IMG/VR virus record: IMGVR_UViG_3300025131_000355
Span: 1-26,442 of that record
Length of the DNA: 26,442 nt
Source: a virus
Direction: 5' to 3' (one strand)
The translations under genes and the position numbers were made by a program. Shown one piece after another: positions 123-25,584 of the stretch; position 1 is the first letter of the stretch, and every line of letters begins with the position of its first letter. The notes beneath the pieces are model-generated. The model did no database searches. It had not been told where the DNA came from and worked only from the letters and a program-made list of their open reading frames with translations.

Positions 123-2249
123 ATGAGTTACATAATCAATAATACCAATGCTTATTCTAGCATAAAGCTTACCGAAAAAGGTAGGGAGCGTCTTGCGTTA
201 GGTCAATTAAACTTCGCATACTGGGCTATAGGTGACTCTGAAGTCAACTATGATAGAGAAGTATTTTATGATGATACTGACCCATTCGGTTCATCTGCTA
301 ACATTTCTGGTGCAACAAGAGTTCTAAGACCTAAAGACCAACAACCGAATTTCAAATACTACATCACAACTGATGGTACTACGAACTTGAACACAATGCA
401 ACCAGCAAACATCGAAGTGATGAAGGCTGTTGTAAACAATGCTGCTGATGACCGAGGATTCTTCGCTAACAGTGGTGGTACATTCACTACTTTAAGTAGC
501 ACGACATATACCATTGATTCTCAAACAGTTAGCAACGTTGTATTTACAGGTGGGACACAACTTTGTATCTCAGGACTTACAGCCGAGGTTGGTGATAGGA
601 TTCTAATTAAGTACACTCACCCAACGACTAGCGGATTCACAGAATTCAGTAACACATTACCATTGCCTAACCTATGGTATCAAATCGAGAATACCACTAG
701 TGGTTCTACTTGTTTTGACGTTGACCGAGACCTACCTGACTTCAGTGGTTTCACTGGTATGAGTCAAGTGATGGTATACTCTGGAGAAGAGGTGTGGGAT
801 ATGTTCGGCAGTTCTTCTGTTCCTTATTGGGATAGTGGAACATTGAGTTTTGATTCATGTTGTAACGTAGCTTGTACTGACGTTCCTATTTGGAACCAGA
901 ACAACGTATGGTGTGAAGACCCTGCTGGATTCAGTTCAGGTACGACATACGAACATTTTCAAGACTTTGGTTCATTTGACTATTTAGGTCAGAAGCACCC
1001 TTATCTATGGTACCCATGTACTGAAGATGGTGAAACGAGTGATATAATTTGTGAAGTTGCAGGTTTATCAGTTGTAGACACCGTGAGAAAATCAATCGGG
1101 ATTATCCATTACACGAATAATGTGGTATCTAACGTTTATGGGGAATTCTTCTATATTGATAATGACAACAACAAGACTGTAACACTTGAGATGCCAGATT
1201 TGATGTACCACAGACGTAATTATGGTTCTGGACTTGGTACGAATATGGGTATGACATTCTTGGCTAGTGGTGACACACAAATGATACCTAATAGCGACAT
1301 TGAATACGTCCCATTGATTGAAGACCCAACATTGGTTGGTACTTCAAGAGTGGTAGGTAAAGTATTCCCACAATTGAAAACAATCGTAATTGATGATGAT
1401 GAAATTGTTATGGCGACTTCAGCTAAAGCTAACAGAAACTGGACATTACCAGCATTGGCTGCAAACTTAGTTGCCCCAGCAAGTGGTGGTACATTAGAGA
1501 CTGATAAGACGATGTACTTAACATACATTTTAGATAACGAATCTACTGGTACGACCAGTGGAATGACAACACCAATCAACTGTCAATATTACACGAAAAT
1601 AAGTAACACAACCCCAACAACTAAAAATGTTGAGTTCAGATTGAATGCAGTCGATTTACTACCTTACATGAGGAAAATCGAAGCAATTGGTTATGATGGG
1701 TTAGGGTTCAATGCATACAACTTTAGGGTGTTATGGCAAATTGTTGACGAACCTGAAGACAGACCGTTAACCGATGCATGGAATGAGTATAACTTTACTA
1801 GCCTTGCTATTACGACAGGTGTTGATGAAACAATTGACCCAGTGTTGTTGGAAGCTCAAAACCCAGTTACAAACGGGTTCTTGATTGACGATAGCGTTGC
1901 TTTAGCCAGTACAACGTTCTACATTATTGACACACTTAACTTCCCAGCAGATGTCGATGACCAAAACCTACAATTGGGTGATGAGAGATTCTTCTATGGT
2001 AATGTTAGCGCACATATTGGAGCTACAATTTACAAAACATTGTTCAAGCTTGATATCGATGCAGCGCAATTCGAATACACAAGTAACCCAACTAGAGGTG
2101 TAGACCCTAATATCCCAGAGCCAAATATCAGGATAACTGAAGCTGGCATCTATGATAGTGAGAAGAACTTGGTTTTAGTAGCTAAGATGTCAAAACCATT
2201 CATACTAGATGGTAACACAATAACAGCAGAATTAAGCATCGATTTTTAA
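123..2249 (+). CDS. Structural protein, tail-fibre or baseplate-like (708 aa)
   Basis: The N-terminus (about residues 14-45) has the pattern LTEKGRERLALG...AIGDSEVNY. The C-terminus (about 665-708) has ITEAGIYDSEKNLVLVAKM and ends in a strand-rich tail. Both ends match the protein at 3023-4216, so the two are paralogs with different middles. This layout, a GR(E/D)RL/GDS N-terminus and a GlYDxxG C-terminus, resembles phage tail-collar or fibre proteins of the DUF3751 type; that assignment is from memory of the family. The middle is Thr/Ser/Asn-rich with a Cys-rich patch near residues 240-270 and no transmembrane segment. Its last codons (AELSIDF, stop) are repeated in recoded form at the end of the adjacent HNH gene. 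A TATTTATA box precedes it, consistent with late expression. Confidence 0.7.
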   Translation: MSYIINNTNAYSSIKLTEKGRERLALGQLNFAYWAIGDSEVNYDREVFYDDTDPFGSSANISGATRVLRPKDQQPNFKYYITTDGTTNLNTMQPANIEVMKAVVNNAADDRGFFANSGGTFTTLSSTTYTIDSQTVSNVVFTGGTQLCISGLTAEVGDRILIKYTHPTTSGFTEFSNTLPLPNLWYQIENTTSGSTCFDVDRDLPDFSGFTGMSQVMVYSGEEVWDMFGSSSVPYWDSGTLSFDSCCNVACTDVPIWNQNNVWCEDPAGFSSGTTYEHFQDFGSFDYLGQKHPYLWYPCTEDGETSDIICEVAGLSVVDTVRKSIGIIHYTNNVVSNVYGEFFYIDNDNNKTVTLEMPDLMYHRRNYGSGLGTNMGMTFLASGDTQMIPNSDIEYVPLIEDPTLVGTSRVVGKVFPQLKTIVIDDDEIVMATSAKANRNWTLPALAANLVAPASGGTLETDKTMYLTYILDNESTGTTSGMTTPINCQYYTKISNTTPTTKNVEFRLNAVDLLPYMRKIEAIGYDGLGFNAYNFRVLWQIVDEPEDRPLTDAWNEYNFTSLAITTGVDETIDPVLLEAQNPVTNGFLIDDSVALASTTFYIIDTLNFPADVDDQNLQLGDERFFYGNVSAHIGATIYKTLFKLDIDAAQFEYTSNPTRGVDPNIPEPNIRITEAGIYDSEKNLVLVAKMSKPFILDGNTITAELSIDF
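2220..2249 (+). repeat. Recoded terminal duplication, copy 1 (ITAELSIDF-stop)
   Basis: The last nine codons of the structural gene encode ITAELSIDF. Positions 2992-3021 encode INAELSIDF plus stop. GCAGAATTA is identical in both, but Ser (AGC/TCA), Ile (ATC/ATA), Asp (GAT/GAC) and Phe (TTT/TTC) all use different synonymous codons. One copy is the current end of the structural gene, the other the end of the HNH gene inserted behind it. Confidence 0.8.
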
Positions 2250-2256
2250 TAATATC

Positions 2257-3021
2257 ATGGGTAGAATTAAAAAATATCTTACGGAAGAAGAGAAGCTAGA
2301 GGCTAAAAGACGTAATGGTAGAGCTTACGCTAAAAGAAACAAAGTTAGGTTAGCTAATAAAGCTAAAGAATGGTATGGTAATCATAAAGAAGAAAAAAAA
2401 GCATACTACAATTCGAACAAAAAAGAACTAACGGAGGAAGAAAAGGTGAGGCGGGATATCTATAAGAGAAAGTGGGTGGAATCTAATAAAGATAGGATAA
2501 AAAAATATGTTGAGGATAATAAGGATAGGATTAAAGCGGTCAAGGAAAAATGGGTAAAGAATAATCCTGATAAGGTAAGAGTAAGTAAATTAAAATATAA
2601 GAAAAATAATCCAGAACGAGTTAAAGAAAGCTATAATAAATCAGTTAGGAAACGGAAAATAAATGACCCCTCATTTAAACTAGCTTGTAATATTAGAAGT
2701 ATGGTGAGTAAGACGATACGTAAGGGGGGGTATATTAAGACATCTAAAACCCATGAAATACTTGGGTGCTCGTTCGATGAATTCAAGATGCATTTGGGGT
2801 CTCAATTCGAACCGTGGATGAATTGGGGGAATTACGGATTATATAACGGTGAAGAGTGCTATGGGTGGGATATTGACCATATAATACCGTTAGCCACCAT
2901 AATAACAGAAGATGATATAATCAGGTTAAATCATCACACCAACCTACAACCACTATGTAGTTATGTTAATCGTATAGTGAAACGTGGGAAAATTAACGCA
3001 GAATTATCAATAGACTTCTAA
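2257..3021 (+). CDS. HNH homing endonuclease
   Basis: This is probably a site-specific DNA endonuclease that spreads its own gene. The first ~125 residues are very basic with repeated units of the form KxKWVxxNxDRI, as in the DNA-contacting N-terminus of many phage HNH proteins. The nuclease motif is DIDHIIPL (Asp207, His208) followed by LNHHTNLQPLC (His226, His227, Asn229). The start is seven bases after the stop of the upstream structural gene, and the end is one base before the start of the next. Its last nine residues, INAELSIDF, are not HNH sequence but match the end of the upstream structural protein, so the frame runs into what looks like the original 3' end of that gene. A broken relative lies at 8503-8718. 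No TATTTATA box is seen, so it is probably co-transcribed with the structural genes. Confidence 0.9.
   Translation: MGRIKKYLTEEEKLEAKRRNGRAYAKRNKVRLANKAKEWYGNHKEEKKAYYNSNKKELTEEEKVRRDIYKRKWVESNKDRIKKYVEDNKDRIKAVKEKWVKNNPDKVRVSKLKYKKNNPERVKESYNKSVRKRKINDPSFKLACNIRSMVSKTIRKGGYIKTSKTHEILGCSFDEFKMHLGSQFEPWMNWGNYGLYNGEECYGWDIDHIIPLATIITEDDIIRLNHHTNLQPLCSYVNRIVKRGKINAELSIDF
2992..3021 (+). repeat. Recoded terminal duplication, copy 2 (INAELSIDF-stop)
   Basis: This is the partner of 2220-2249. It is probably the ancestral end of the structural gene, now read as the C-terminus of the HNH protein. It is followed at once by the start of the next structural gene (3023), which is the junction expected before the insertion. 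Confidence 0.75.
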
Positions 3022-3022
3022 G

Positions 3023-4216
3023 ATGGGATTTAACAACACAACAACAACGCTAACAGCTAAGTTCACACCGATTGGACGTGAACGACTAATCCAAAATGCT
3101 AGCAACTTGATAACACAATTTGCATTGGGTGATTCAGACGCGAACTATTACTGTACATTAGATTTAGGTCTTGGTGAGATTCCATCAATGGGTGGTGACC
3201 TTACGTCTACCAGTGGTTTGACCAGTAATACTGTGACAACAAATGTTGTGATGAATAATAAGTTATACGCTAAGAATGGTAGTTTCTTCAAGAATGTTGA
3301 ATCAGGTTCAAATAGGTTGGTTCAGTCCTTCGAAAGTTTGGGTCAATCAACGGTTTTGGGTAATCTAACCAGCGTAGATGTTATTTCACGTAGTGCTACA
3401 ACAACAGACCCATTGGTTAACCTATACCGATCATTTAAACTTCCTATTACTAGCAGTGATGATTTAGCATATACTAACAAGACATTATCCCAAGGTGGGT
3501 GGTCTGACACAGCATTGGCAAGTATCGCATCTGATAAAATAGTTGTGGTGAGTATACTTAACGAAAGTTACGGTGATATGTTAGATGGTAAGGAAGTTAA
3601 CTTTTCCGTGTCTGGTACCACAGGTGGTACGTACAATCTTTATAGCACGTTCCAAAACAAACAAGGTAACATTGCTTTGGATGATAGCAGACTCACAGAA
3701 ACTTCAAGTCAAACAGCTAAGTTCGCACCTAACTATGCGTTCCTATTCTCAGACCAAATTAAGAGACCTAATGGTGATGTTTCAAAGTCATGGGCAACAG
3801 GGTTTGGAACTATAAAACCGTTCTCAGCTAATGGTAAGAGTAGATACAATCTAACAACTAACAACACTCTAGGTTTATCAGCAGATACAGCCGTAGGTAT
3901 TGTATTCTTGGATAAAGGTTTAATCGTGATTACTGATTCTACAATCGTTAATGATGTGACTGGTACTACAAGTGCCGACACAGTAACATTCGGAAGCGCT
4001 AGTTCAATCGTAAACCAAGAGTTTACCTGTATTGCATCCAGAGGACAATTCACAAGGTCGAATAACCCAACGTATGTCGATGGTGATACACCTAGGATTT
4101 CAGAGGTTGGTCTATATGACAGCAACGGTAATATGATAGCATATGGTAAGACGGATGCACACATCCCTAAAACCGCTAACGAGTTGAAAGCCTTCTCAGT
4201 ACGTATCAACGTTTAA
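3023..4216 (+). CDS. Structural protein, paralog of the upstream fibre-like protein (397 aa)
   Basis: The N-terminus (about residues 10-40) reads FTPIGRERL...FALGDSDANY, and the C-terminus (about 352-397) reads RISEVGLYDSNGNMIAYGK. Both match the 708-aa protein at 123-2249. The middle is Ser/Thr-rich, beta-prone in composition and without transmembrane segments. It is probably a second, shorter component of the same tail or baseplate substructure. Only one base separates it from the HNH stop, so before the HNH insertion these two paralogs were neighbours. The DUF3751-like assignment is inference. Confidence 0.7.
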   Translation: MGFNNTTTTLTAKFTPIGRERLIQNASNLITQFALGDSDANYYCTLDLGLGEIPSMGGDLTSTSGLTSNTVTTNVVMNNKLYAKNGSFFKNVESGSNRLVQSFESLGQSTVLGNLTSVDVISRSATTTDPLVNLYRSFKLPITSSDDLAYTNKTLSQGGWSDTALASIASDKIVVVSILNESYGDMLDGKEVNFSVSGTTGGTYNLYSTFQNKQGNIALDDSRLTETSSQTAKFAPNYAFLFSDQIKRPNGDVSKSWATGFGTIKPFSANGKSRYNLTTNNTLGLSADTAVGIVFLDKGLIVITDSTIVNDVTGTTSADTVTFGSASSIVNQEFTCIASRGQFTRSNNPTYVDGDTPRISEVGLYDSNGNMIAYGKTDAHIPKTANELKAFSVRINV

Positions 4217-4274
4217 AGTAATACTTTACATTTATTGTGGGATTGACTATCTTTCTTTTTATAAGAACAATAGG

Positions 4275-4334
4275 ATGACAGAGAACGGATTTATATTAGG
4301 GTTGGACGTATCAACCAAGACTTTTTCACACTGA
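4275..4334 (+). pseudogene. Orphaned 5' end of the RuvC-like gene
   Basis: The frame from ATG at 4275 encodes MTENGFILGLDVSTKT, then three unrelated residues and TGA. It matches the N-terminus of the functional RuvC-like protein (EENGVILGLDVSTKT, from 5068), including the first catalytic Asp, but nearly every codon differs synonymously apart from a shared ACCAAGAC block. The copy breaks off at about 4321, where the inserted GIY-YIG cassette begins. It is best read as the original start of the gene, left behind when the cassette supplied a new one. Confidence 0.8.
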
Positions 4335-4339
4335 CGATA

Positions 4340-4347
4340 TATTTATA
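4340..4347 (+). promoter_or_regulatory. TATTTATA promoter box for the GIY-YIG gene
   Basis: TATTTATA begins 19 bases before the start codon at 4359. If it acts as a -10 element, transcription would start about 6 bases before the ATG. It lies inside the inserted cassette, so the endonuclease gene brings its own promoter. Confidence 0.5.
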
Positions 4348-4358
4348 TTGAAAGTATT

Positions 4359-5057
4359 ATGGATAAAGAGGTAGTTTATATTTATGGGTTGGTGGAACCA
4401 ACCACGAAAGAATTAAGGTATGTGGGTAAAAGTAAAAACCCTAAAGTTAGGTTACGGAAGCATATTTCAGAGAGATTTAAACATGATAGTTATAAAGATA
4501 GGTGGATTAGAAAGATGGTTGATTCAGAATCTAGACCAGAGCTTATAATTATTGATGAAGTTTTAAAAGAAGAGTGGCAGTATTGGGAGCGACATTATAT
4601 TGCGTATTATAGGGGGTTAGGTGTTAGATTAACTAATAGTACAGATGGTGGTGACCAACCACCCTCAACCAAAGGTAGGAAACATACTGAAGAATCTAAA
4701 CGAAAAATGTCTGAAGCAAAAAAAGGTAAAGCTATCCCTTGGTTGAATAACGGTGAAGTTAGGTCTCAAGAACATAGAGATAATCTAAGTAAAGCCATTA
4801 AAGGGAGGATATCACCAAATAAAGGTAAAAAAGCGTCAATTGAGTTACGAAAAAAATTAGCTGATGCCTCAACTAGTAAAAAAAAAGTGAAACAATTAGA
4901 TTTGGATGGTAATTTTATAAAAATGTGGGAGTCAGTTAATGAGGTTCAAAAAGAGATGAATTTGAGACACATTTCAGAATGTTGTAGGGGTGTTAGTTAT
5001 AAAACGGTTGGTGGTTTTAAATGGGAATATGAAAAAAGAATTAAATATGAAAAATAG
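4359..5057 (+). CDS. GIY-YIG homing endonuclease with NUMOD repeats
   Basis: The N-terminal GIY-YIG domain is seen as VYIYGLVEPTTKELRYVGKS (residues ~6-25), followed by conserved Arg and His (VRLRKH) and a Glu-containing ERHYIAYYR segment. Then come three NUMOD3-like DNA-binding repeats (GRKHTEESKRKMSEAKKGK, QEHRDNLSKAIKGR, NKGKKASIELRKKLADAS). The C-terminus is NUMOD1-like (VKQLDLDGNFIKMWESV... to FKWEY). The order nuclease, linker repeats, C-terminal binding module is typical of I-TevI-type and Seg-type enzymes. The gene sits between the orphaned 5' end of ruvC and the recoded ruvC start and overlaps ruvC by 11 bases, so the two may be translationally coupled. Confidence 0.93.
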   Translation: MDKEVVYIYGLVEPTTKELRYVGKSKNPKVRLRKHISERFKHDSYKDRWIRKMVDSESRPELIIIDEVLKEEWQYWERHYIAYYRGLGVRLTNSTDGGDQPPSTKGRKHTEESKRKMSEAKKGKAIPWLNNGEVRSQEHRDNLSKAIKGRISPNKGKKASIELRKKLADASTSKKKVKQLDLDGNFIKMWESVNEVQKEMNLRHISECCRGVSYKTVGGFKWEYEKRIKYEK

Positions 5058-5709
5058 AGAAAATGAGGAAAATGGGGTTATTCTTGGTCTAGATGTTAGC
5101 ACCAAGACAATCGGAGTTGCATTATTTGAAGATATGGGTGGTCGTGGCGAGTTGAGTGTACTTACACATATCACACCCAAAGTAAAACCAGTACCAGAGA
5201 GTAAGATTGAAGAGCTTTTTAAGAAGGTAGAGGTATTTGAAGAATTCCTCAAAAAACATAGGGACACTGGTATCACTAAAGTGATAATCGAGGAACCACT
5301 ACTACGTTCAAACAACGTTTATACTGTAGCTACATTACTACGTTTTAATGGTATGGTATCGAGGTCTGTATATGACATCCTAGGTGTAGTTCCAGACTTC
5401 ATTTCTTCTTACGATGCTAGAGCATTTGGTTTTCCAGAATTAATGCAGAAGAGAACACACAAGAAAGATGGGACGCCACACACTGAAGCTGCTATCAAAA
5501 AGGCGAAACCAGTATTGTTTGGTGGTTTAGGTTATGGCATAGACAAGAAATCTATAATTTGGGAAATGGTCAGTGAGTTAGAACCACAGATTGAGTGGTT
5601 ATACACTAAAGTGAATTCATTAAAGAAAGAGAACTACGATATGTGCGATGCTTATACCTGTGTTTTAGGGCAGATGCATAAGGGGCGTAAATGGTGTCCT
5701 AAGACTTAA
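5047..5709 (+). CDS. ruvC: RuvC-like Holliday junction resolvase, both termini replaced
   Basis: This is an RNase H-fold resolvase of the phage RuvC type, expected to cut branched DNA during recombination and packaging. GLDVSTKTIGVALFE carries the first catalytic Asp (Asp16). VIIEEPLL carries the second acidic site (Glu82/83). MCDAYTCVLG carries the last Asp (Asp201). The start at 5047 is chosen because it sits just before the region matching the orphaned N-terminus at 4275 and overlaps the GIY-YIG stop. An earlier in-frame ATG at 4990 would lie deep in the GIY-YIG gene. The first ~15 residues and the last ~20 each have an alternative, differently coded copy beyond the flanking endonuclease genes (4275-4334 and 6550-6609). 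The gene is therefore a chimera with new ends. The protein still has all its acidic residues and is probably active. Confidence 0.88.
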   Translation: MKNRENEENGVILGLDVSTKTIGVALFEDMGGRGELSVLTHITPKVKPVPESKIEELFKKVEVFEEFLKKHRDTGITKVIIEEPLLRSNNVYTVATLLRFNGMVSRSVYDILGVVPDFISSYDARAFGFPELMQKRTHKKDGTPHTEAAIKKAKPVLFGGLGYGIDKKSIIWEMVSELEPQIEWLYTKVNSLKKENYDMCDAYTCVLGQMHKGRKWCPKT

Positions 5710-6520
5710 CATGTTCTGATAAGGTTAGTGGTTGGTTTTTGAATTTCCATATATAACCACACCCAGTTTTTCTATGACCACTACAAGCCTGACGAATAGC
5801 CCCCCAACTTAAACCCGTCTTGTTGTGGGCATCTTTAGTATTTTTAAAGGTGGCTATAAGTTTCCCATTTAAGTCATACTGTCTAACTTCTGACAATCGT
5901 TTAGAATTATTGGCTTTGGTTATATCAGAATTGGTTATAGGGTCATCACGGAATCGCCAAATAAAACCATTGGAAGAGTTTTGTTTTTTTAAGCAACATG
6001 CTGATATGTTTTCAGCGTGAAAACCTGAAATTCGCTCTACTTGTGCGGCAGACCCCCAGTCTTTAATCTTAACACCCTTTAAATCATATTGGGTTATGGG
6101 TTTGCCACAATGATTATTATCAATTTTTATCTTACTAATAGTTTTACCAAAGTCACCCGAACGTTTAATTGGTATAGTGGGTTTAGCACTTGATTGTTGA
6201 TTATAACCATTCTCTTTAATGTACGATTTTTTAGCGTCTAACCATTTTTGTTCTAAGGTTATCAATAATTCTTTGATATCATTTTTAGACATCCCATCAA
6301 CATCAACCACATCCAACACCTTAAATTCAAAATTATCTATACCATATTTTGTTATAGCGTTATGTAATATTATACTACCCTTACCATACTTATGCTGGTT
6401 CCACCGTCTATCAATATCAATAGATTGACCAATATATACCTTATTATTGGTGGTATTAGTAACCCCGTATATCCCAACTACGGGTTTGTTACCTAATTCT
6501 CTAACTATTTTATCTCTCAT
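5699..6520 (-). CDS. GIY-YIG homing endonuclease with two NUMOD1-type modules
   Basis: The N-terminal nuclease domain reads VVGIYGVTNTTNNKVYIGQS, then IDRRWNQHK and LEQKWLDAKK (catalytic Glu region), then an ENGYN segment. Two C-terminal modules follow, ITQYDLKGVKIKDWGS... and VRQYDLNGKLIATFKN..., each ending in a GfIWRF/GYIWKF motif, the usual NUMOD1 arrangement. The start at 6520 was chosen because a TATTTATT box lies three bases upstream. A longer frame to 6613 would read antisense through the leftover 3' end of ruvC. The gene is convergent with ruvC and overlaps its stop by 11 bases. It separates the present ruvC end from the original one at 6550-6609. Confidence 0.92.
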   Translation of the reverse strand: MRDKIVRELGNKPVVGIYGVTNTTNNKVYIGQSIDIDRRWNQHKYGKGSIILHNAITKYGIDNFEFKVLDVVDVDGMSKNDIKELLITLEQKWLDAKKSYIKENGYNQQSSAKPTIPIKRSGDFGKTISKIKIDNNHCGKPITQYDLKGVKIKDWGSAAQVERISGFHAENISACCLKKQNSSNGFIWRFRDDPITNSDITKANNSKRLSEVRQYDLNGKLIATFKNTKDAHNKTGLSWGAIRQACSGHRKTGCGYIWKFKNQPLTLSEHVKS

Positions 6521-6523
6521 AGT

Positions 6524-6531
6524 AATAAATA
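6524..6531 (-). promoter_or_regulatory. TATTTATT promoter box for the minus-strand GIY-YIG gene
   Basis: On the minus strand TATTTATT is followed by three bases and then the ATG at 6520. It differs from the recurrent TATTTATA box by one base. The spacing implies a leaderless or nearly leaderless transcript. Confidence 0.45.
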
Positions 6532-6549
6532 TGCGGTAACCTGAGAAAA

Positions 6550-6609
6550 GATGCATACGTTGCAGTGTTAGGTCAGATGCACAAAGAAAAGCTTTGGGTA
6601 CCAGCTTAA
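6550..6609 (+). pseudogene. Orphaned 3' end of the RuvC-like gene
   Basis: This frame encodes DAYVAVLGQMHKEKLWVPA and stop, with no start codon of its own. The functional RuvC ends DAYTCVLGQMHKGRKWCPKT. DAY and VLGQMHK are identical, but the codons for Ala, Tyr, Val, Gly, His and Lys differ synonymously. It lies beyond the GIY-YIG gene, just before the primase promoter, where the native ruvC end would have been. It is best read as the original 3' terminus displaced by the cassette. Confidence 0.82.
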
Positions 6610-6651: not shown

Positions 6652-6656
6652 GTGTG

Positions 6657-7616
6657 ATGGCTTTTTACATTCCAGACATATTGGAATCCTTCTTAGGTGA
6701 TGCTAAGAAGCATAATGACGTTTCTGGTCAGATGGCTTTTGACTGCCCAGTGTGCTCAGAAGAGAAGGGTATGCCACATGGTGACGGTAAGGGGAATCTT
6801 GAAGTTAACTATGAGGAAGGTGTTTATAGATGCTGGTCATGTAGTGAAACTCACGGAACCCATGGTTCGTTAGGTAAACTGATATTCAAACACGGCAGTA
6901 AAAAGAATCAACGGGATTACCAAGCTATAAAACCAGATTACGACTATATCCGAGTAGCCAAAGAAGGTGAAGTGGTGCCAGTGACAATCGTAAAACTACC
7001 TGAGAGCTTTATAAGGTTGACAGATTGTAACAAACATAGACAGTATTACCGAGAAGCAATGAAGTACCTCAAGGATAGAGGTATAACCGATTGGATGATT
7101 GACTATTATGATATTGGGTTTGCTTCAAGTGGTAAATACCATAGTAGAATAATCATACCATCTTATAGTTTAGCTGGAAACGTGGACTATTACATTGCGA
7201 GGTCTTTCAATAAGAAGGTCTACCCAAAGTATCTGAATCCAGAGGCTGAAAAAACCGAGGTCATATTCAATGGCTACAAGATAAATTTAGATTGTACAAT
7301 ATACTTGGTTGAGGGTGCTTTTGACCACATCGTGATACCGAACTCAATACCGTTATTAGGTAAATACATCTCACCAGAATTGTTCTTATTTTTACAAAAT
7401 GCTAAGGCTAACATTGTCATCTTATTGGATGCTGATGCTGTTGCTGATGCGAAAAAGAATTACAGGATGTTAAATGTTGGTGACCTACGTGGTAGGGTTA
7501 AGATAAGTATACCACCAGAAGGTGAAGACCCAAGTAGTATCTTTAAGAAGTGGGGATACAAGGGAATTAAGAAGTTTATAAATAACTCAATAAGGTTAAA
7601 AGAAGGTAGCATATGA
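6657..7616 (+). CDS. DnaG-type DNA primase
   Basis: This should synthesise RNA primers at the phage replication fork. An N-terminal zinc ribbon has Cys30-x2-Cys33 (CPVC) and Cys59-x2-Cys62 (CWSC), with a His-rich loop after it. The Toprim domain follows, with YLVEGAFDH (Glu219) and ILLDADA (Asp258, Asp260). The protein ends after a C-terminal helical segment, giving 319 residues. This is shorter than bacterial DnaG and lacks a helicase domain, as in stand-alone phage primases such as T4 gp61. The ATG at 6657 is preferred over a GTG one codon earlier. It stands directly after a host-like promoter, consistent with early expression. Confidence 0.88.
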   Translation: MAFYIPDILESFLGDAKKHNDVSGQMAFDCPVCSEEKGMPHGDGKGNLEVNYEEGVYRCWSCSETHGTHGSLGKLIFKHGSKKNQRDYQAIKPDYDYIRVAKEGEVVPVTIVKLPESFIRLTDCNKHRQYYREAMKYLKDRGITDWMIDYYDIGFASSGKYHSRIIIPSYSLAGNVDYYIARSFNKKVYPKYLNPEAEKTEVIFNGYKINLDCTIYLVEGAFDHIVIPNSIPLLGKYISPELFLFLQNAKANIVILLDADAVADAKKNYRMLNVGDLRGRVKISIPPEGEDPSSIFKKWGYKGIKKFINNSIRLKEGSI

Positions 7617-8484: not shown

Positions 8485-8489
8485 TTGTA

Positions 8490-8497
8490 TATAAATA
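8490..8497 (-). promoter_or_regulatory. TATTTATA promoter box on the minus strand
   Basis: On the minus strand TATTTATATAC precedes the ATG at 8484. This copy on the opposite strand, in the same orientation relative to its gene, supports an oriented promoter element rather than chance AT-richness. Confidence 0.5.
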
Positions 8498-8502
8498 GTT
8501 AG

Positions 8503-8718
8503 TTATCTCTTAACGTCCCGATTAATTTTACTACATAATGGTTGTAGATTACTGTGGTGATTCAATTTGATTAGCGACAAGTTATCAGTAGCTGAATTGA
8601 TAGGTATTAGATGGTCAATGTCCCAACCATAACAGTATTCACCATTATATTTACCATAATTATCCCAATTCATCCAACATTCAAATTGAGATTCAAGGTG
8701 TAATTTGAACTCTTCAAG
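8503..8718 (-). pseudogene. Truncated HNH homing endonuclease (C-terminal 71 codons)
   Basis: Read on the minus strand this frame gives EEFKLHLESQFECWMNW, then YGWDIDHLIPI, then LNHHSNLQPLCSKINRDVKR and stop. It matches residues ~170-240 of the HNH protein at 2257-3021 almost position by position and keeps the Asp-His and Asn of the nuclease motif. The N-terminal ~170 residues are missing. The break coincides exactly with the right end of an IS605-type hairpin at 8719-8760. It has no start codon and is presumably not expressed as a functional enzyme. Confidence 0.85.
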
Positions 8719-9839: not shown

Positions 9840-11027
9840 TTGTATAAAGCACATAAATATCGTCTGTATCCTAACCAAGAGCAAAAAGTTCTACTATCCA
9901 AACATTTTGGGCATTGTAGGTTTATTTGGAATTTGGCATTAGAGACAAAGACAAACGCATATTTGAGTGCTAAGGTGGGTTATAGTAGGTTTAATTTACA
10001 GAAGCAGTTGGTTGAGTTAAAGAAAGAATGTGAGTGGTTAAAAGAAGTAAACAGTCAAGCTTTGCAAGCTGTTTTACAAAACTTAGACTTAGCATACAAA
10101 AAGTTTTTCAAAGGTGCTGGGTTTCCTAAGTTCAAATCAAAAGATACTAAGCAATCTTTCCATGTTCCACAAAACGTAAAAGTTGAAGATGGTGGGTTGG
10201 TGATACCTAAGTTCAAGAAAAAGGGGATTAAGGTTAAGTTACATAGACCGTTGGAAGGTACTATCAAATCAGCCACCATCTCAATAACATCTACGGGAAA
10301 GTACTTTGTATCTATTCTTTGTGAAACAGGTAAAGAGTGTAAAACCAAAACACCTGTTGAAGAAAATAAAACAATAGGGATAGATTTAGGAATTAAAGAT
10401 TTTGCAGTAACATCAGATGGTGAAGTATTTGAAAACCCTAAATTCCTACGTAATTCAATACAAAGATTAAAGGTATTACAACGTAGAGCGTCTAAAAAGA
10501 AAAAAGGAAGTAACAATAGACAGAAAGCAAATAAGAGAGTAGCATTGTTACATGAGAAAATAAAGAATCAAAGACAAGACTTTTTGCACAAAGTTTCTAA
10601 TAAGCTAATTCGTGAGAACCAAACGATTTGTTTAGAAGATTTAGGTGTGAAGAACATGATGAAAAATCATTGTCTTGCACAAGCAATATCAGATGTTAGT
10701 TGGTCAGAGTTCAATAGAATGATTGAGTACAAGGCTGAATGGTATGGAGTAAATATACTTCGTATTGGTCGTTTTGCACCAAGCTCCAAAACTTGTGAAT
10801 GTGGTTCACTCAACAAAGACCTAAAACTATCTGATAGAACTTGGGAATGTAAAAGCTGTGGACGAGTTAACGAGCGAGACTTGTTAGCAGCAAACAATAT
10901 AAAGAAATTTGCTCTATATAAAGAAATATCAAGGTCGGAACGACCTGTAGAGCCTGTGGAGATGTCAACATTAGTTGAATCTATGAAACAGGAAGCCCAT
11001 CCCATCGCCTATGGCGTGGGTGGGTAG
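9840..11027 (+). CDS. tnpB: TnpB RNA-guided nuclease
   Basis: TnpB proteins are RNA-guided DNA nucleases, the ancestors of Cas12. The sequence opens YKAHKYRLYPNQEQKVLLSK and HFGHCRFIWNLALE, as is usual for the family. The RuvC domain is intact: IGIDLGIKDFAV (Asp182), ICLEDLGVKNM (Glu266) and NERDLLAANNI (Asp347). The zinc ribbon has Cys319, Cys321, Cys337 and Cys340. At 395 residues the length is normal. TTG at 9840 is the best start; no ATG is in frame before it. The C-terminal tail (VEPVEMSTLVESMKQEAHPI) overlaps the probable guide RNA scaffold. It is the only gene of its element and appears undamaged. Confidence 0.92.
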   Translation: MYKAHKYRLYPNQEQKVLLSKHFGHCRFIWNLALETKTNAYLSAKVGYSRFNLQKQLVELKKECEWLKEVNSQALQAVLQNLDLAYKKFFKGAGFPKFKSKDTKQSFHVPQNVKVEDGGLVIPKFKKKGIKVKLHRPLEGTIKSATISITSTGKYFVSILCETGKECKTKTPVEENKTIGIDLGIKDFAVTSDGEVFENPKFLRNSIQRLKVLQRRASKKKKGSNNRQKANKRVALLHEKIKNQRQDFLHKVSNKLIRENQTICLEDLGVKNMMKNHCLAQAISDVSWSEFNRMIEYKAEWYGVNILRIGRFAPSSKTCECGSLNKDLKLSDRTWECKSCGRVNERDLLAANNIKKFALYKEISRSERPVEPVEMSTLVESMKQEAHPIAYGVGG

Positions 11028-11031
11028 TTCA
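10929..11031 (+). ncRNA. Probable omega RNA scaffold at the 3' end of tnpB
   Basis: In this family the guide RNA is formed from the 3' part of the tnpB transcript and the right end, with the guide read from flanking DNA. Here the end of the gene holds a short GGTCGGAACGACC hairpin (10933-10945) and the large right-end hairpin with arms CCCATCCCATCGCC and GGCGTGGGTGGG (10997-11025). The guide would begin at about 11032, in sequence antisense to the end of the LAGLIDADG gene. The 5' boundary is a guess. Confidence 0.45.
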
Positions 11032-11925
11032 CCCATCGATAATTAATTTATACTTATCGTACTTTCTAGGTAGACCTATACCATCAATATCAAACGATTT
11101 ATAAAGGTACCCACCCAACTTTTGAATACCCACCTTATTGGTTATTCTAAATTGTGATGACGAATTTAGATTACCAGATTTAGGGTTAACACTACTACTC
11201 AACTTCACTTTGTATTTGATACCCATATCGTCACATAATTTTACCATATACGACCAGTCTTGTTCGTAAGATGAGGTAATTGTGAATTGCCTTTGAACGG
11301 AACCAGTTTTAGGTTTATAATAGTAGAAACATCCGTCACCATCACTTAGACCTAAAAAGAAATAAGACTTTAATTCGTTTGGTATTTTAGATAATATTTT
11401 ATCGGGAGATACCACGGATTTTTCATCGTAACCGTTATCCACCAAGAAATCGAATACCCTCTTATTATTAGTGGTCATAGTCTCAGTATTTCGCCAACCA
11501 GCATTATCGTAAGTCCTGACGTAGTAATTCCATTTACCAACTCTATCGAATGTAGGCTTTAGTTTAATCATATCATCTTCTAGAATCTTAACCGTGATTA
11601 GGTGATTAGACCCGTTAGTCGATGAGTTTAGGTATCCATCAGCCCACATAAACCCAAGAAAATACGCAACTTCCTTATCTCGAATTGAGTAAAATTTATC
11701 TGGATTGACGTTACATTCTGTGGGTGGTTTAGATAATAACCTACTTTTACTTTCCTTTGATAATTTTAATTGTAGTAAATTACACTTACTTACAATACCC
11801 TTTTTAGACCTGTTTAATTGTTTGCTACATTCCGTAACACCTAAATGTTGGTAATTATTCTTCAACCACTCAAGGTCTTTATAGGACCATCGTTTTTTAT
11901 TGTATTCCATTCTACTATACTTCAT
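11029..11925 (-). CDS. LAGLIDADG homing endonuclease, monomeric type
   Basis: Two LAGLIDADG motifs are visible, VAYFLGFMWADGYL and KSYFFLGLSDGDGCFYY, each with its metal-binding Asp, so this is a single-chain, two-domain enzyme. The N-terminal ~60 residues (SYKDLEWLKNNYQHLG..SKKGIVSKC) look like a helix-turn-helix DNA-binding module. The C-terminus IGLPRKYDKYKLIIDG is the usual family ending. The stop codon (TGA on the minus strand, 11031-11029) lies in the terminal bases of the tnpB element, so a few native residues may be lost. The start at 11925 follows a TATTTAAC box by three bases; ATG at 11910 is an alternative. It is divergent from gp47. Confidence 0.88.
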   Translation of the reverse strand: MKYSRMEYNKKRWSYKDLEWLKNNYQHLGVTECSKQLNRSKKGIVSKCNLLQLKLSKESKSRLLSKPPTECNVNPDKFYSIRDKEVAYFLGFMWADGYLNSSTNGSNHLITVKILEDDMIKLKPTFDRVGKWNYYVRTYDNAGWRNTETMTTNNKRVFDFLVDNGYDEKSVVSPDKILSKIPNELKSYFFLGLSDGDGCFYYYKPKTGSVQRQFTITSSYEQDWSYMVKLCDDMGIKYKVKLSSSVNPKSGNLNSSSQFRITNKVGIQKLGGYLYKSFDIDGIGLPRKYDKYKLIIDG

Positions 11926-11928
11926 ATT

Positions 11929-11936
11929 GTTAAATA
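11929..11936 (-). promoter_or_regulatory. TATTTAAC, possible promoter box for the LAGLIDADG gene
   Basis: On the minus strand TATTTAAC lies three bases before the ATG at 11925, the same spacing as the TATTTATT box before the minus-strand GIY-YIG gene. It differs from the consensus at the last two positions. Confidence 0.3.
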
Positions 11937-11970
11937 TGTTAATAAACTGGAAAACGTTAAAAATGTGTTG

Positions 11971-11978
11971 TATATTTG
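11971..11978 (+). promoter_or_regulatory. Bacteroidota-type -7 box for gp47
   Basis: TATATTTG matches the TAnnTTTG consensus fully, 17 bases before the gp47 ATG at 11996. The -33 region is weak (TGG at 11948-11950, 20 bases upstream). It lies in the 70-base divergent region shared with the LAGLIDADG gene. Confidence 0.55.
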
Positions 11979-11995
11979 TGTTAAAATTTAATATC

Positions 11996-12676
11996 ATGAT
12001 AAAATCCGTGATTCATCTCGCAGATATTCATATCAGAACATATAGGATGCACAGCGACTATGAGGCTATGTTCAAAGAGTTGTATTCGAAATGCAGGGAG
12101 ATAACCCAAGACTTCGGATATGAGGAAGTAAGAATTGTCATTGTTGGAGACTTACTCCACCAAAAAATCACAATCTCTAACGAGTTGTTGGTAATGACAG
12201 CAGAGTTCATAAGTGAATTAGCCGACATAGCGCCTCTGGTGATTGTTGCTGGAAACCACGACCTACTTGAAAATAACAAGGATAGGCTGGACAGCATCAC
12301 ACCAGTCGTGCGCCTATTAAATAACAAGAACATTCAATACTATAAGGATAAAGAGTGTTACTTGGATAATAACATCGTATGGTGTAACTATTCAATCTTT
12401 AGTGAGAATGAACGACCAGATATCGAAGCTGCTAGGGCTGAACATGGTGCCGACAAGAAATACATCGGACTATACCATGCACCAGTATTGGGTGCTTCTA
12501 CGGACTTGGGTTATGAGTTCGAGATTGGCACACCATTAGACCACTTCCAAGGTTGTGACGCTGTTATGATGGGTGACATTCATAAGCGGAGTTGTTTTTA
12601 TCTAACGGATAAGAAAGAAATTTACGAAGATGAATTAGATAAATACCTTAAAATGGGGTGGGAAATTGATAATTAA
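11996..12676 (+). CDS. gp47/SbcD-like recombination nuclease, N-terminal piece
   Basis: This is the metallophosphoesterase part of the Mre11/SbcD-type nuclease that works with gp46 in recombination-dependent replication. All catalytic motifs are here: DIH (Asp10, His12), VGDLLH (Asp52), AGNHD (Asn87-Asp89), YHAP and MGDIHKR (His196). After HKR the expected sequence stops and is replaced by a 28-residue tail containing EDELDKYLKMGWEIDN, which resembles linker motifs of phage endonucleases rather than SbcD. The continuation expected after HKR is found 0.9 kb downstream at 13609-13836. The start at 11996 gives the normal SbcD N-terminus; a longer frame to 11900 would run through the promoter. 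Confidence 0.87.
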   Translation: MIKSVIHLADIHIRTYRMHSDYEAMFKELYSKCREITQDFGYEEVRIVIVGDLLHQKITISNELLVMTAEFISELADIAPLVIVAGNHDLLENNKDRLDSITPVVRLLNNKNIQYYKDKECYLDNNIVWCNYSIFSENERPDIEAARAEHGADKKYIGLYHAPVLGASTDLGYEFEIGTPLDHFQGCDAVMMGDIHKRSCFYLTDKKEIYEDELDKYLKMGWEIDN

Positions 12677-12699
12677 TGTTCTTTCATTATGTTTACCGA

Positions 12700-12707
12700 T
12701 ATTTATA
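12700..12707 (+). promoter_or_regulatory. TATTTATA promoter box for the PD-(D/E)XK endonuclease gene
   Basis: GATATTTATATAAGG shares eleven or more bases with the box before the sigma gene (GATATTTATATAAG at 16532-16545). It lies 33 bases upstream of the start at 12741, within the insert that splits gp47. Confidence 0.55.
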
Positions 12708-12740
12708 TAAGGATAACGCCTAAATAAATAATAGTAGAAT

Positions 12741-13625
12741 ATGATAAAGATATGTGAAAATTGTAATGGTGAGTTTAAAACTTATAAGAGTGGGCAGAAG
12801 TATTGTAGTAAAAAGTGTAGTGGTAAGGCTAATAGTCTAAATAAGGTTAATAAAGAATGTGAGTATAGTGGTTGTACAAAAATATTTGATATCTATGAGG
12901 ATAGTAAATCTAATAAGGTTAAGAAGTTCTGTTCGACTACATGTCAAAATAATTGGCAAAAAACCTATCAGTTAGGTGAAAATAATGGTAATTATGGTAG
13001 AAAAAATAGTTGGGGTACCCATAGTTTAGAGAAGAGAAGAGAAATAAGTATTAAAGTTAAAAATAGTTGGGAAAACCCGGAACGGTTGGAAAAGCATTTG
13101 GAATTTTTAAATCGTCATAGGCTATCAGATGGCAGTTTTGATTGGCAAGACGAGTTTTTTAGGGATAGAATTTCTAAAGCTAATATAAAACGGTTAATGT
13201 GTGAACCTAGTTATGGTGCATATAATAATTGTAAGCGTGGGTGGTACAAATCAACTAAAACTGATGATGATGAGTATTATCATTCTTCGTGGGAGGAATT
13301 AAAAATGGTTGAATTAGATGGAGATGATAACGTAAACTTTTGGACTAAGAAACATCGACACGTTATAGTTTATTATGATGGTAATATAAGGAGAAGATAT
13401 TTACCAGATTTTTTAATTGATAATGGTGTTGAAAGTATATTAGAGGTTAAAGGTCACATAAAAGACGAGCGAATTTTTAAATTGAAATGTGTTGCAGCGT
13501 TAGAATATTTTAGTTCATTAAAAATAGACTATCGTTTAGATTTCATGAAAAATGAAAATAAATATGGTGATTTATTATATTGGTTTAAAAATAAGAAAGA
13601 GGAATATTATGAAAAAGAAGATTAA
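12741..13625 (+). CDS. Putative homing endonuclease, zinc fingers plus PD-(D/E)XK domain
   Basis: The N-terminus has two Cys clusters, CENCNGEF...KYCSKKC and CEYSGCTKIF...KFCSTTC. Then comes a NUMOD3-like GENNGNYGRKNSWG element. The C-terminal domain has YYHSSWEELKMVEL, LPDFLIDNGVESILEVKG and KLKCVAALEYF. This D...ExK pattern with the preceding SSWE is the VSR/PD-(D/E)XK fold seen in a class of phage intron- and intergenic endonucleases. It sits exactly between the two halves of gp47 and overlaps the start of the second half by 17 bases, so the pair may be translationally coupled. The family assignment is by motif only. Confidence 0.78.
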   Translation: MIKICENCNGEFKTYKSGQKYCSKKCSGKANSLNKVNKECEYSGCTKIFDIYEDSKSNKVKKFCSTTCQNNWQKTYQLGENNGNYGRKNSWGTHSLEKRREISIKVKNSWENPERLEKHLEFLNRHRLSDGSFDWQDEFFRDRISKANIKRLMCEPSYGAYNNCKRGWYKSTKTDDDEYYHSSWEELKMVELDGDDNVNFWTKKHRHVIVYYDGNIRRRYLPDFLIDNGVESILEVKGHIKDERIFKLKCVAALEYFSSLKIDYRLDFMKNENKYGDLLYWFKNKKEEYYEKED

Positions 13626-13836
13626 AATAAAGAAGATAACCCCCATTGTATATTCTGGTTCACTAATCCAGCAAGATTTCGGTGAGAATGTAAGTGGTCA
13701 CGGATTCCTACTTTGGGATGTACCAACATTGGGGTTTACTGGGGTTGACCTTAATAACGATTACGGTTTCTATAAATTCACAGTTAATTCAGTGGATGAT
13801 GTGGAGAACGATAAAGAAGTATTTAACAACGCATAA
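13609..13836 (+). CDS. gp47/SbcD-like recombination nuclease, C-terminal piece (75 aa)
   Basis: The sequence ITPIVYSGSLIQQDFGEN, then HGFLLWDV, is the segment that normally follows GDIHKR in SbcD-like phage nucleases. It ends with a short capping domain (YGFYKFTVNSVDDVENDKE). The start at 13609 (MKKKIKIKKITPIVYSG) was chosen because the upstream in-frame extension lies entirely inside the endonuclease gene. The ten basic residues before ITPIVYSG are probably new. With the piece at 11996-12676 it would make a nearly complete gp47 if the two associate. It overlaps the next gene by one base. Confidence 0.82.
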   Translation: MKKKIKIKKITPIVYSGSLIQQDFGENVSGHGFLLWDVPTLGFTGVDLNNDYGFYKFTVNSVDDVENDKEVFNNA

Positions 13837-23801: not shown

Positions 23802-23805
23802 ACTA

Positions 23806-24267
23806 ATGGAAAAAGGAAATAGAGTAAGAAGGGTTGAAGCAGCTAATAAGTTAGCCGAACAACGTTACCTTAATAGGAACGCAATCGTTGAGAATGAATT
23901 TAGTCATAACGGTATGGCACCCTTCATGAACGTACATAAGGATGGTACATTCAGTGATGCTGATAAGGAGCCAGTCTCAGACAACGAAGCGGTTAATGAA
24001 ACCGAAGTATCCTTAAATGAGGGTGTGGTAAACGAGGTTGATATGGATTTAATCAACGCTGCTGGTGATTGGATTACTGGTGGTGGTATTGTAAATGTCG
24101 GTGGTGAATCAGTTCCAAGGAACCTAGCCACATTAGCTATGAGTATTATGCCAGCCGCATCCGTAGCAGGTTTCGTAGCGACATTCTGGAGTGAAATTAA
24201 AGCAAAAGTAGGGAAAGGTGATATTGAAGAACTTTCTCCAGCGCAAAAAGATGCTGAAAAAGAGTAG
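23806..24267 (+). CDS. Small protein with conserved hydrophobic module (153 aa)
   Basis: The N-terminus contains NKLAEQRYLNRN, and the C-terminal half has ITGGGIVNVGGESVPRNLA followed by a hydrophobic helix and FVATFWSEIKAKVGKG. Both elements recur in the next large protein (24349-25584): VNLLAEQRYLESK and KGGGMSNVGGETIPTNLA with FVANFWSEIKAKLGFG. The two are paralogs or share an exchanged module. The hydrophobic stretch (about residues 108-130) could insert in a membrane. Function is unknown. Confidence 0.72.
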   Translation: MEKGNRVRRVEAANKLAEQRYLNRNAIVENEFSHNGMAPFMNVHKDGTFSDADKEPVSDNEAVNETEVSLNEGVVNEVDMDLINAAGDWITGGGIVNVGGESVPRNLATLAMSIMPAASVAGFVATFWSEIKAKVGKGDIEELSPAQKDAEKE

Positions 24268-24346
24268 ACCACCAAGACAACAACATAATGGGCGCCCATC
24301 TAAACCAAAAGAAGATAGGACTAATTCAAGTAAAGATAGAAGATAA
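24251..24346 (+). CDS. Possible small basic protein (31 aa)
   Basis: ATG overlaps the end of the previous gene and the frame encodes MLKKSRPPRQQHNGRPSKPK and ends DRTNSSKDRR, two bases before the next start. It is strongly basic. The ending SSKDRR resembles the ending NASKDR of the following 411-aa protein. It could be a micro-gene or non-coding spacer. Confidence 0.3.
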   Translation: MLKKSRPPRQQHNGRPSKPKEDRTNSSKDRR

Positions 24347-24348
24347 TC

Positions 24349-25584
24349 ATGAGAAGGCGAGACAAATCAAAGAACATCGAAAAAGTTAATTTATTAGCTG
24401 AACAACGTTACCTTGAATCAAAGACCGATACTTTGGGTAATCCTTACGTATCGAATGGTGAAATGCAAGCAGCACAAGAAATGCTTAGAAGAACCCAAGT
24501 TCAATTGGCTGAAAGAGCTGAAGCAGGTGTTATCACAGAAGATTTGGAGAGCCAAGAAGTTTCTTTGAAGTTAGACAACGGTGGTGTATTCACAGGTGAA
24601 CCTAGGTTAAGACCAGAACAATTAAGTCTACAGATAGGGAGAAATGGTCATTTCTCTTTTTGGGAAGGTGAATTCTCAAGTGGTGGTGTAAAGATTGTTG
24701 GTGGGGTTGACCCTCAATCAGAAGAATGGTTAAGGCAAGCCACTAAAGTGTATAGTGTTGCCGAAAGAAAATCTTACCCAGAAAAATTTGCTGAAAGAGG
24801 GGGTTCCCGAAAAATCCTTATCAAAAGTAAGGATGATTGGACACGAGAAATGACCAATCTTAAAAGTAAGGGGTACATGTATAAATCACAACATGATATA
24901 AACCCAGAAAGAGATTTTGTCTCTATGCATAACTATGCCAAATATCCATATGAAGTTATCGTTGATGATAGCGCTAAGACAATACATTTTGGTGAACACT
25001 CAATCAGTGAAGGGAAAACACCATTTGAAAGAATAGGTAGTAGGGATAGTATTGCGGTTAAGGAGAGTACATTAACAGAAGGTGGAATCGACCCAAGCGT
25101 TGTTATCAATATAATCGACCTTGCAGGTGAATGGGTTAAAGGTGGTGGTATGTCAAACGTTGGTGGTGAAACAATACCAACTAACTTAGCCAGTCTTATT
25201 ATGGGACTAATGCCAATGGCTGCTGCCACAGCATTCGTTGCTAATTTCTGGTCAGAGATAAAAGCAAAATTAGGTTTTGGTAATGAGGTGGGTAAACCTG
25301 TTAAGGAAGCAATAAGCGAATACCCAAACGCTGATAAGATAATGGAGAAAGTAATTGACGACATTTACCAAACGGTTAAATCTACTGGTAGTCGACATGT
25401 TGAAATATCTGACCAGACATGGCAAATGGTAGAAATACTTCACGGTCTTGGTGATGGTGCAATATCAGAGGTTGGTGCAGGTTACAACGGTACAAACCCA
25501 TTTATGGAAGGTGATGCACCACAGAAAAACTATAATTCTTCTGGAATACCTAGAGTAGATGGCAATGCGAGTAAAGATAGGTGA
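24349..25584 (+). CDS. Protein with hydrophobic module, paralog of the preceding small protein (411 aa)
   Basis: The N-terminus (residues ~10-25, EKVNLLAEQRYLESK) and a segment at about 255-310 (LAGEWVKGGG, SNVGGETIPTNLA, hydrophobic helix, FWSEIKAKLGFG) match the 153-aa protein upstream. Between them lies an extra ~200 residues, including a beta-rich stretch (RNGHFSFWEGEFSSGGVKIVG) and a basic helical stretch (DDWTREMTNLKSKGYMYKSQ). The C-terminus is acidic then Gly/Asn-rich. No known family is recognised. The last 26 bases overlap the endolysin gene. Confidence 0.72.
   Translation: MRRRDKSKNIEKVNLLAEQRYLESKTDTLGNPYVSNGEMQAAQEMLRRTQVQLAERAEAGVITEDLESQEVSLKLDNGGVFTGEPRLRPEQLSLQIGRNGHFSFWEGEFSSGGVKIVGGVDPQSEEWLRQATKVYSVAERKSYPEKFAERGGSRKILIKSKDDWTREMTNLKSKGYMYKSQHDINPERDFVSMHNYAKYPYEVIVDDSAKTIHFGEHSISEGKTPFERIGSRDSIAVKESTLTEGGIDPSVVINIIDLAGEWVKGGGMSNVGGETIPTNLASLIMGLMPMAAATAFVANFWSEIKAKLGFGNEVGKPVKEAISEYPNADKIMEKVIDDIYQTVKSTGSRHVEISDQTWQMVEILHGLGDGAISEVGAGYNGTNPFMEGDAPQKNYNSSGIPRVDGNASKDR

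Follow-up and report, generated by a model that had tools for sequence, protein, structure and literature searches.

The strategy of pairing a homing endonuclease with a foreign end for its host gene is already known, at the 3' ends of genes, from WHO elements in yeasts and mORFs in fungal mitochondria. WHO elements of Torulaspora and Lachancea species consist of an endonuclease and an imported, cleavage-resistant FBA1 end, with the native end left behind as an orphan (Coughlan et al. 2020, PMC7282813). In fungal mitochondrial DNA, mORFs occupy, for example, atp6 of Allomyces and atp6, atp9, cox2 and nad3 of Glomus, and the inserted and native atp6 ends share 63.5% DNA and 91% protein identity (Beaudet et al. 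2013, PMC3630166). Phages carry free-standing GIY-YIG and HNH endonucleases outside introns, for example the T4 seg and mob genes, which home by double-strand-break repair with co-conversion, according to a review (Edgell et al. 2010, PMC2988022). Here we analyzed a stretch of viral DNA of 26,442 bp, positions 1–26,442 of IMG/VR record IMGVR_UViG_3300025131_000355 (the window), and compared it with loci and contigs from environmental and public phage data, which are given L-numbers (L001, L005, L084 etc.). The window harbors three cassettes in which an endonuclease gene lies between the working end of a gene and an orphan second copy of that end. We read them, with a probability of roughly 0.87, as intron-less homing elements whose mobile unit would be the endonuclease gene together with a foreign functional end of the host gene.

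The gene order of the window is shared by relatives on contigs of up to 362 kb, so the window probably represents part of a large phage genome. The original prediction had placed gene-end duplications around one HNH and two GIY-YIG genes at 2220–6609, and all three are present there. The duplicated ends span 9–18 codons, and working and orphan copies share 56–70% of their nucleotides and 67–89% of their amino acids. The features of the region are listed below, with native and imported ends named as we read them.

123–2249, plus strand: tail-type structural gene A; its last codons (about 2220–2249) are the putative imported C-terminus, placed by gene order and by L249
2257–2994, plus strand: native part of the open reading frame (ORF) of an HNH-type homing endonuclease, assigned by motif and annotated homologues
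2992–3021, plus strand: orphaned native C-terminus of gene A, which has become the in-frame 3' end of the HNH ORF, including its stop codon
4275–4322, plus strand: orphaned native RuvC N-terminus (MTENGFILGLDVSTKT), cut within the conserved DVSTKT motif
4323–4358, plus strand: left edge of the GIY-YIG cassette (TTTTCACACTGACGATATATTTATATTGAAAGTATT), which L084 shares at 97% identity and at the same nucleotide, in another RuvC allele
4359–5057, plus strand: GIY-YIG/NUMOD3 homing endonuclease (Pfam PF01541, PF07460), member of a RuvC-N clade of six
5047–5109, plus strand: imported N-terminus of the working RuvC (MKNRENEENGVILGLDVSTKT)
5047–5709, plus strand: working RuvC-like Holliday junction resolvase (phrog_159)
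5647–5709, plus strand: imported C-terminus of the working RuvC (DAYTCVLGQMHKGRKWCPKT)
5699–6520, minus strand: GIY-YIG/NUMOD1-type homing endonuclease of the RuvC-C clade (PF01541 above the cut-off, NUMOD1 slightly below)
6550–6609, plus strand: orphaned native RuvC C-terminus (DAYVAVLGQMHKEKLWVPA), in its native place before the primase
6654–7616, plus strand: DNA primase (phrog_47), directly 3' of RuvC in relatives without the insertion

In the first case, gene A ends in ITAELSIDF and a stop, and the HNH ORF (2257–3021) ends, as an in-frame fusion, in INAELSIDF and a stop; the next gene starts at 3023. The two copies agree at 21 of 30 nucleotides over nine codons. In the second case, the orphan RuvC start lies upstream of the plus-strand GIY-YIG gene, and the working RuvC begins ..EENGVILGLDVSTKTIG; the copies share 15 codons at 87% amino acid and 58% nucleotide identity (score 71). 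The third case follows at the other end of the same gene: after the RuvC stop at 5709 come the minus-strand GIY-YIG gene, whose last codons overlap the RuvC stop region in antisense, the orphan with its own stop, and the primase. Here the copies share 18 codons at 67% amino acid and 56% nucleotide identity (score 69). A tblastn search of RuvC against its own record also recovers the orphan N-terminus (E=6e-4). The same structure is found in L001 and L002, which come from different metagenome sets and encode a RuvC protein 100% identical to that of the window; it is therefore not an assembly accident of the window record.

Both breaks in RuvC interrupt conserved motifs, the N-terminal one LGLDVSTKT|IG and the C-terminal one NFD|M(T/S)DAY. 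From their aspartates, these motifs seem to correspond to the catalytic ends of a RuvC fold; a search of solved structures by sequence gave only a weak match, to a putative Holliday junction resolvase. The HNH ORF has no Pfam match, but it contains the motif WDIDHIIP..NLQPLC and its phage homologues are annotated as HNH endonuclease or endonuclease VII. Both GIY-YIG enzymes combine the catalytic domain with NUMOD modules and lie outside any intron, as is typical of free-standing homing endonucleases. The three cassettes had been predicted to be unrelated. This is too strong: both GIY-YIG genes have the same type of nuclease domain, which leaves two nuclease folds in the window, and the endonucleases belong to a few families.

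Phage GIY-YIG and HNH homing endonucleases are often borne by introns (T4 td, nrdD), and the endonucleases could in principle sit in group I or II introns, with the orphan being the true exon that is spliced on and the copy at the gene body being intron sequence. However, the window has no match to an Rfam intron family at E<=1, and the copy at the gene body is complete and in frame. In the second case, some 36 nucleotides separate the orphan from the endonuclease, whose end overlaps the working copy, which leaves no room for a ribozyme. Moreover, endonucleases of one clade occur in both orientations. An intron origin is thus most improbable.

The direction of the replacement could be read from a set of near-identical contigs that differ in two cassettes: L005 and L008 have neither, L006 has the one at the exonuclease gene, L022 the one at the primase gene, and L004 both. 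The exonuclease gene of L006 shows no mismatch to that of L005 over 545 nucleotides up to L005:8405. Past this insertion point, L006 continues with a foreign end of 60 nucleotides (including the stop), an HNH gene and a second ORF, followed by an orphan that matches L005 exactly from 8405 onwards. At the start of the primase gene, the orphan of L004 equals L005 up to L005:6760, where the GIY-YIG cassette starts, and L022 behaves likewise. The working primase copy of L004 and L022 is foreign up to L005:6767, 7 nucleotides past the orphan break, and then shows 93–100% identity per 30-nucleotide window. The orphans are 100% identical to the empty allele, and the identity of the working copy is restored at the insertion point or at most 7 nucleotides from it. 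This comparison of occupied and empty alleles establishes that in the exonuclease-C and primase-N cassettes the orphan represents the native end and the working copy a foreign import, in agreement with the predicted origin of the working end from a diverged relative. By analogy, the same direction would apply to the three cassettes of the window; RuvC is directly followed by the primase, with no endonuclease, in L007, L009, L011, L013, L016 and L026.

In distant comparisons, the same final layout would be expected from a partial tandem duplication of the gene, if a free-standing endonuclease later entered between the two copies and these diverged where they lay. The near-isogenic phages speak against this. 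Their empty allele has no duplication, and in the occupied allele the orphan is unchanged while the other copy is already 28% diverged, which means that the divergence preceded the insertion. Within an endonuclease family the orphans also break at a common site, and duplicated termini flank only 2 of 1578 control ORFs (strict test described below, score of at least 60), one of them beside a probable endonuclease ORF. We consider an origin by tandem duplication very unlikely.

The working ends had been described as recoded. They look, however, like ordinary diverged homologues and not like the product of designed recoding, because mismatches between working and orphan ends are distributed over the three codon positions as 0.27/0.17/0.53, in hits that had been selected for protein similarity. 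Among codons for the same residue, 204 of 443 are recoded. The two ends thus appear to have diverged under protein constraint.

Cassettes of this kind recur. We scanned six-frame translations for same-strand peptide duplicates on both sides of an ORF, which among relatives of the window exposed further cassettes of the types RuvC-N, RuvC-C, primase-N and exonuclease-C. Endonuclease-centered loci were then drawn from viral contigs and GTDB genomes, and 308 endonuclease clusters (90% identity) were compared with 1578 other ORFs of similar size from the same loci; as the endonucleases were found as relatives of those in the window, the sample is biased and the rates hold for the sampled families. 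In a strict test, in which one copy must be the in-frame end of a neighboring gene, 22 of 308 endonucleases and 2 of 1578 controls reached a score of at least 60 (odds ratio 61, Fisher p=5e-16); at a score of at least 50 the counts were 25 and 8. On inspection, three of the 22 strict hits were dropped or kept in part, which leaves the result unchanged: L307 contains tandem GIY-YIG genes and L298 a repeated GIY-YIG tail, and in L241 a ribbon-helix-helix match was rejected and a separate N-terminal match retained. The high-scoring loci L322 and L310 were also rejected on inspection. The best-scoring control concerns the C-terminus of a sigma factor, whose orphan is fused to a DUF723 ORF; it is probably a further cassette, and the ORF is probably itself an endonuclease. 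The prediction of a recurrent class, with the proviso that no excess over random genes would overturn it, is borne out by these figures.

Could such matches arise by chance, from low-complexity similarity around AT-rich genes? When left flanks were paired with the right flanks of other endonucleases, 2 of 1848 mismatched pairs (0.11%) had a duplication score of at least 60, compared with 25 of 308 true pairs (8.1%). Both mismatched hits are real homologies, RuvC with RuvC and endonuclease with endonuclease. The second and third window cases lie above this threshold. The first has only nine codons and a strict score of 38, which 48 of 1578 controls (about 3%) also reach; this speaks for chance, and alone the case is weak. 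It is backed by the exact co-termination of the two copies and by L249, another phage in which the arrangement occurs independently. With this replication in other phages, chance is already refuted for the class as a whole and retains practically no credibility.

We curated 31 cassettes, 12 N-terminal and 19 C-terminal, with one more in L091. Their endonucleases are of the GIY-YIG, HNH and TnsA-like types, and the replaced ends comprise 9–56 codons. Host genes recognized by profile encode thymidylate synthase, IF3, sigma-70, a tyrosine integrase, a PD-(D/E)XK nuclease, a pyridine nucleotide-disulphide oxidoreductase-like protein, a gp23-type major capsid protein and an SbcD-like phosphoesterase. 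Primase, exonuclease, RuvC, a tail sheath stabiliser and a protease were also identified as hosts; others, such as the VRR-NUC-like gene in L116, were named by eye. In four C-terminal kinds (tail gene A, VRR-NUC-like, integrase and sigma factor) the orphan forms the in-frame tail of the endonuclease ORF.

The GIY-YIG enzymes are associated with their sites. On a tree of 24 such enzymes from cassettes with 11 target-end labels, the target end changes 10 times, the minimum for 11 labels; shuffled labels gave a mean of 15.3, and 0 of 200 shuffles were as low. All six RuvC-C enzymes fall in a single clade (support 100/99), two of them antisense and four sense to the gene, and the three primase-N enzymes form another. 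The RuvC-N enzymes comprise the clade of six and the enzyme of L012 (4997–6654), which is sister to the primase-N enzymes and thus represents a probable target switch to the neighboring gene. RuvC-C orphans start at a common codon boundary, GAY|ATG, in four phages, and six nucleotides later in the window. This grouping by target, together with the common break boundary, is what would be expected of site-specific homing.

Lateral transfer of the cassettes is evident from the aligned sequences of a sister phage, the L084/L263 contig, in which both RuvC sites and the SbcD site are occupied. Its genes are mostly 50–75% identical to those of the window in steps of 120 nucleotides. At RuvC-N, the native N-termini of the two phages differ until AAGACT, beyond which the cassette edge is 97% identical; one cassette edge thus sits at the same base in two native alleles. 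The RuvC-N GIY-YIG gene (4359–5057 in the window) is 94–98% identical to that of the sister phage in its catalytic half and 55–65% in its C-terminal half, which marks it as a recent chimera by sequence comparison. The endonuclease that splits SbcD is 97–100% identical between the window and L263, with the same split, and about 140 nucleotides of SbcD coding flank were co-converted with it.

This co-converted flank is in line with a more modest scenario, in which classic co-conversion dragged the adjacent gene end along once and the other junction arose by illegitimate joining, without any standing unit that homes again. It would account for the first formation of a cassette. On the other hand, two native alleles share a cassette edge at the same nucleotide, and among near-identical phages cassettes are present or absent with exact edges; both observations suggest that a defined unit has homed repeatedly. 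We regard co-conversion alone as an unlikely but serious explanation.

Several points weigh against our interpretation as mobile units of enzyme and gene end. The imported RuvC N-termini of the window and the sister phage are unlike each other, which also suits the co-conversion scenario and means that endonuclease and end do not always travel together but can be separated by recombination; the endonucleases also recombine internally. Pairs of empty and occupied alleles come from two cassettes of one phage population, and no close empty allele turned up for the window's own sites. Finally, T4, crAss001 and 13 further loci taken from public records of phages yielded no clear case, nor did any of the cultured phages examined. 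No clear terminus duplication was seen at the T4 seg genes or in crAss001, Flavobacterium phages elemo and Fpv1, Pseudomonas JBD44, Enterocloster CB473P1, Streptococcus Str-PAP-1, Staphylococcus PH15, Bacillus Moonbeam and uncultured huge-phage loci. Neither the RuvC nor the tail gene of the window has a relative in INPHARED. T4 mobC and nrdG (L427, 42896–43538) both start with MNYDRIY and agree at 19 of 21 nucleotides. We do not claim them as a cassette, since NYxxIY is also a usual N-terminal motif of HNH enzymes; the likeness may be due to chance or to an old N-terminal replacement.

As a mechanism for the homing of enzyme and gene end together, we propose that a co-infecting phage without the element is probably cut by the endonuclease, at a conserved coding motif close to a gene end. 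Repair from the element-bearing phage would copy the enzyme gene and the linked gene end into the break. The recipient's gene body would then join the imported end in frame, and its own end would be stranded beyond the insert as an orphan, in some cases as a fusion with the endonuclease ORF. This stranded end could serve as the second homology arm for the next homing event, as proposed for WHO elements. An end imported from a diverged homologue would keep the protein and change the DNA, and the synonymous differences beside the cut should block re-cutting of the new allele. It is quite likely that the strategy acts on either terminus of core genes, N or C, and with several endonuclease folds, and that the ends of conserved genes can in this way evolve apart from their bodies. 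It would explain how an endonuclease without an intron can occupy the most conserved motifs of essential genes, the breakage being self-repaired, and would account for chimeric ends of core phage genes, which could mislead phylogeny and annotation. Because the orphan marks the insertion point to the base, it is a sequence signature for mapping homing sites; the cassettes are also natural site-specific units with known empty targets, usable for biochemistry.

Other mobile genes of the window are of different kinds. At 11996–13836 (plus strand), SbcD is split into two ORFs by a TnsA-like/NUMOD3-type endonuclease (12741–13625) without terminus replacement. Between the exonuclease gene and SbcD lie a TnpB/IS605-type gene (9840–11027) and, on the opposite strand, a LAGLIDADG endonuclease gene (11029–11997). 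No terminus duplication was found at the LAGLIDADG gene, the TnpB gene or the SbcD-splitting endonuclease. Just 5' of the exonuclease, a fragment at 8489–8696 (minus strand) resembles the C-terminal part of HNH endonucleases of L263 and is probably a decayed homing gene. Two adjoining genes at 23803–25584 have common N-terminal and internal blocks (LAEQRYL; GDWITGGG..); they were rejected as a homing cassette and are paralogues. In L263, an SbcC-like ORF (6853–7443) reads ..NQGGKCIRYNTKI.. and then stops, which by eye looks like an intein beginning in the Walker A motif.

Compared with elements of phages, the cassettes resemble group I introns and inteins in their insertion into conserved coding motifs, but those remove themselves by splicing, whereas the cassettes replace the lost end. 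Known insertions of the T4 type lie between genes or split them (mobA, mobE), and the SbcD insertion of the window is of the splitting type; in the passages found in the T4 review (PMC2988022) and in a 2023 study of phage homing endonucleases, an imported or orphan gene end is not mentioned. Within the literature covered, our searches found no report of terminus-replacing cassettes in phages or at N-termini.

The closer relatives are the eukaryotic elements, with which the phage cassettes share the layout of a complete host gene, an endonuclease gene and, beyond it, an orphan second copy of the host gene's end. Like WHO elements, they have a chimeric host gene, an orphan fragment that is pushed aside and an endonuclease that is expressed independently in either orientation. 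WHO elements differ in their intein-derived zinc-finger enzyme, one main target (the FBA1 3' end), fragments of about 400 bp and stacked clusters. The phage cassettes use GIY-YIG, HNH and TnsA-like enzymes on many targets, with short ends at both termini; they include neither an HO/VDE-like intein-derived enzyme nor an FBA1 target, and stacked orphan ends were not found at RuvC, where no locus had more than two clear copies of a RuvC end. The likeness to mORFs lies in the foreign C-terminus on the host gene, the endonuclease ORF (GIY-YIG at atp9) and the orphaned native C-terminus. The mORFs differ in residing in organelle genomes, in affecting C-termini only (in PMC3630166) and in an endonuclease that sometimes shares the reading frame of the host gene, not that of the orphan; our cassettes lie on phage contigs, and 12 of the 31 curated ones are N-terminal. 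The architecture reported from yeasts and fungal mitochondria is thereby extended to phages and to N-termini, and what is new, as far as we could find, is its occurrence in phages, the replacement of N-termini, the use of GIY-YIG, HNH and TnsA-like enzymes and the breadth of targets.

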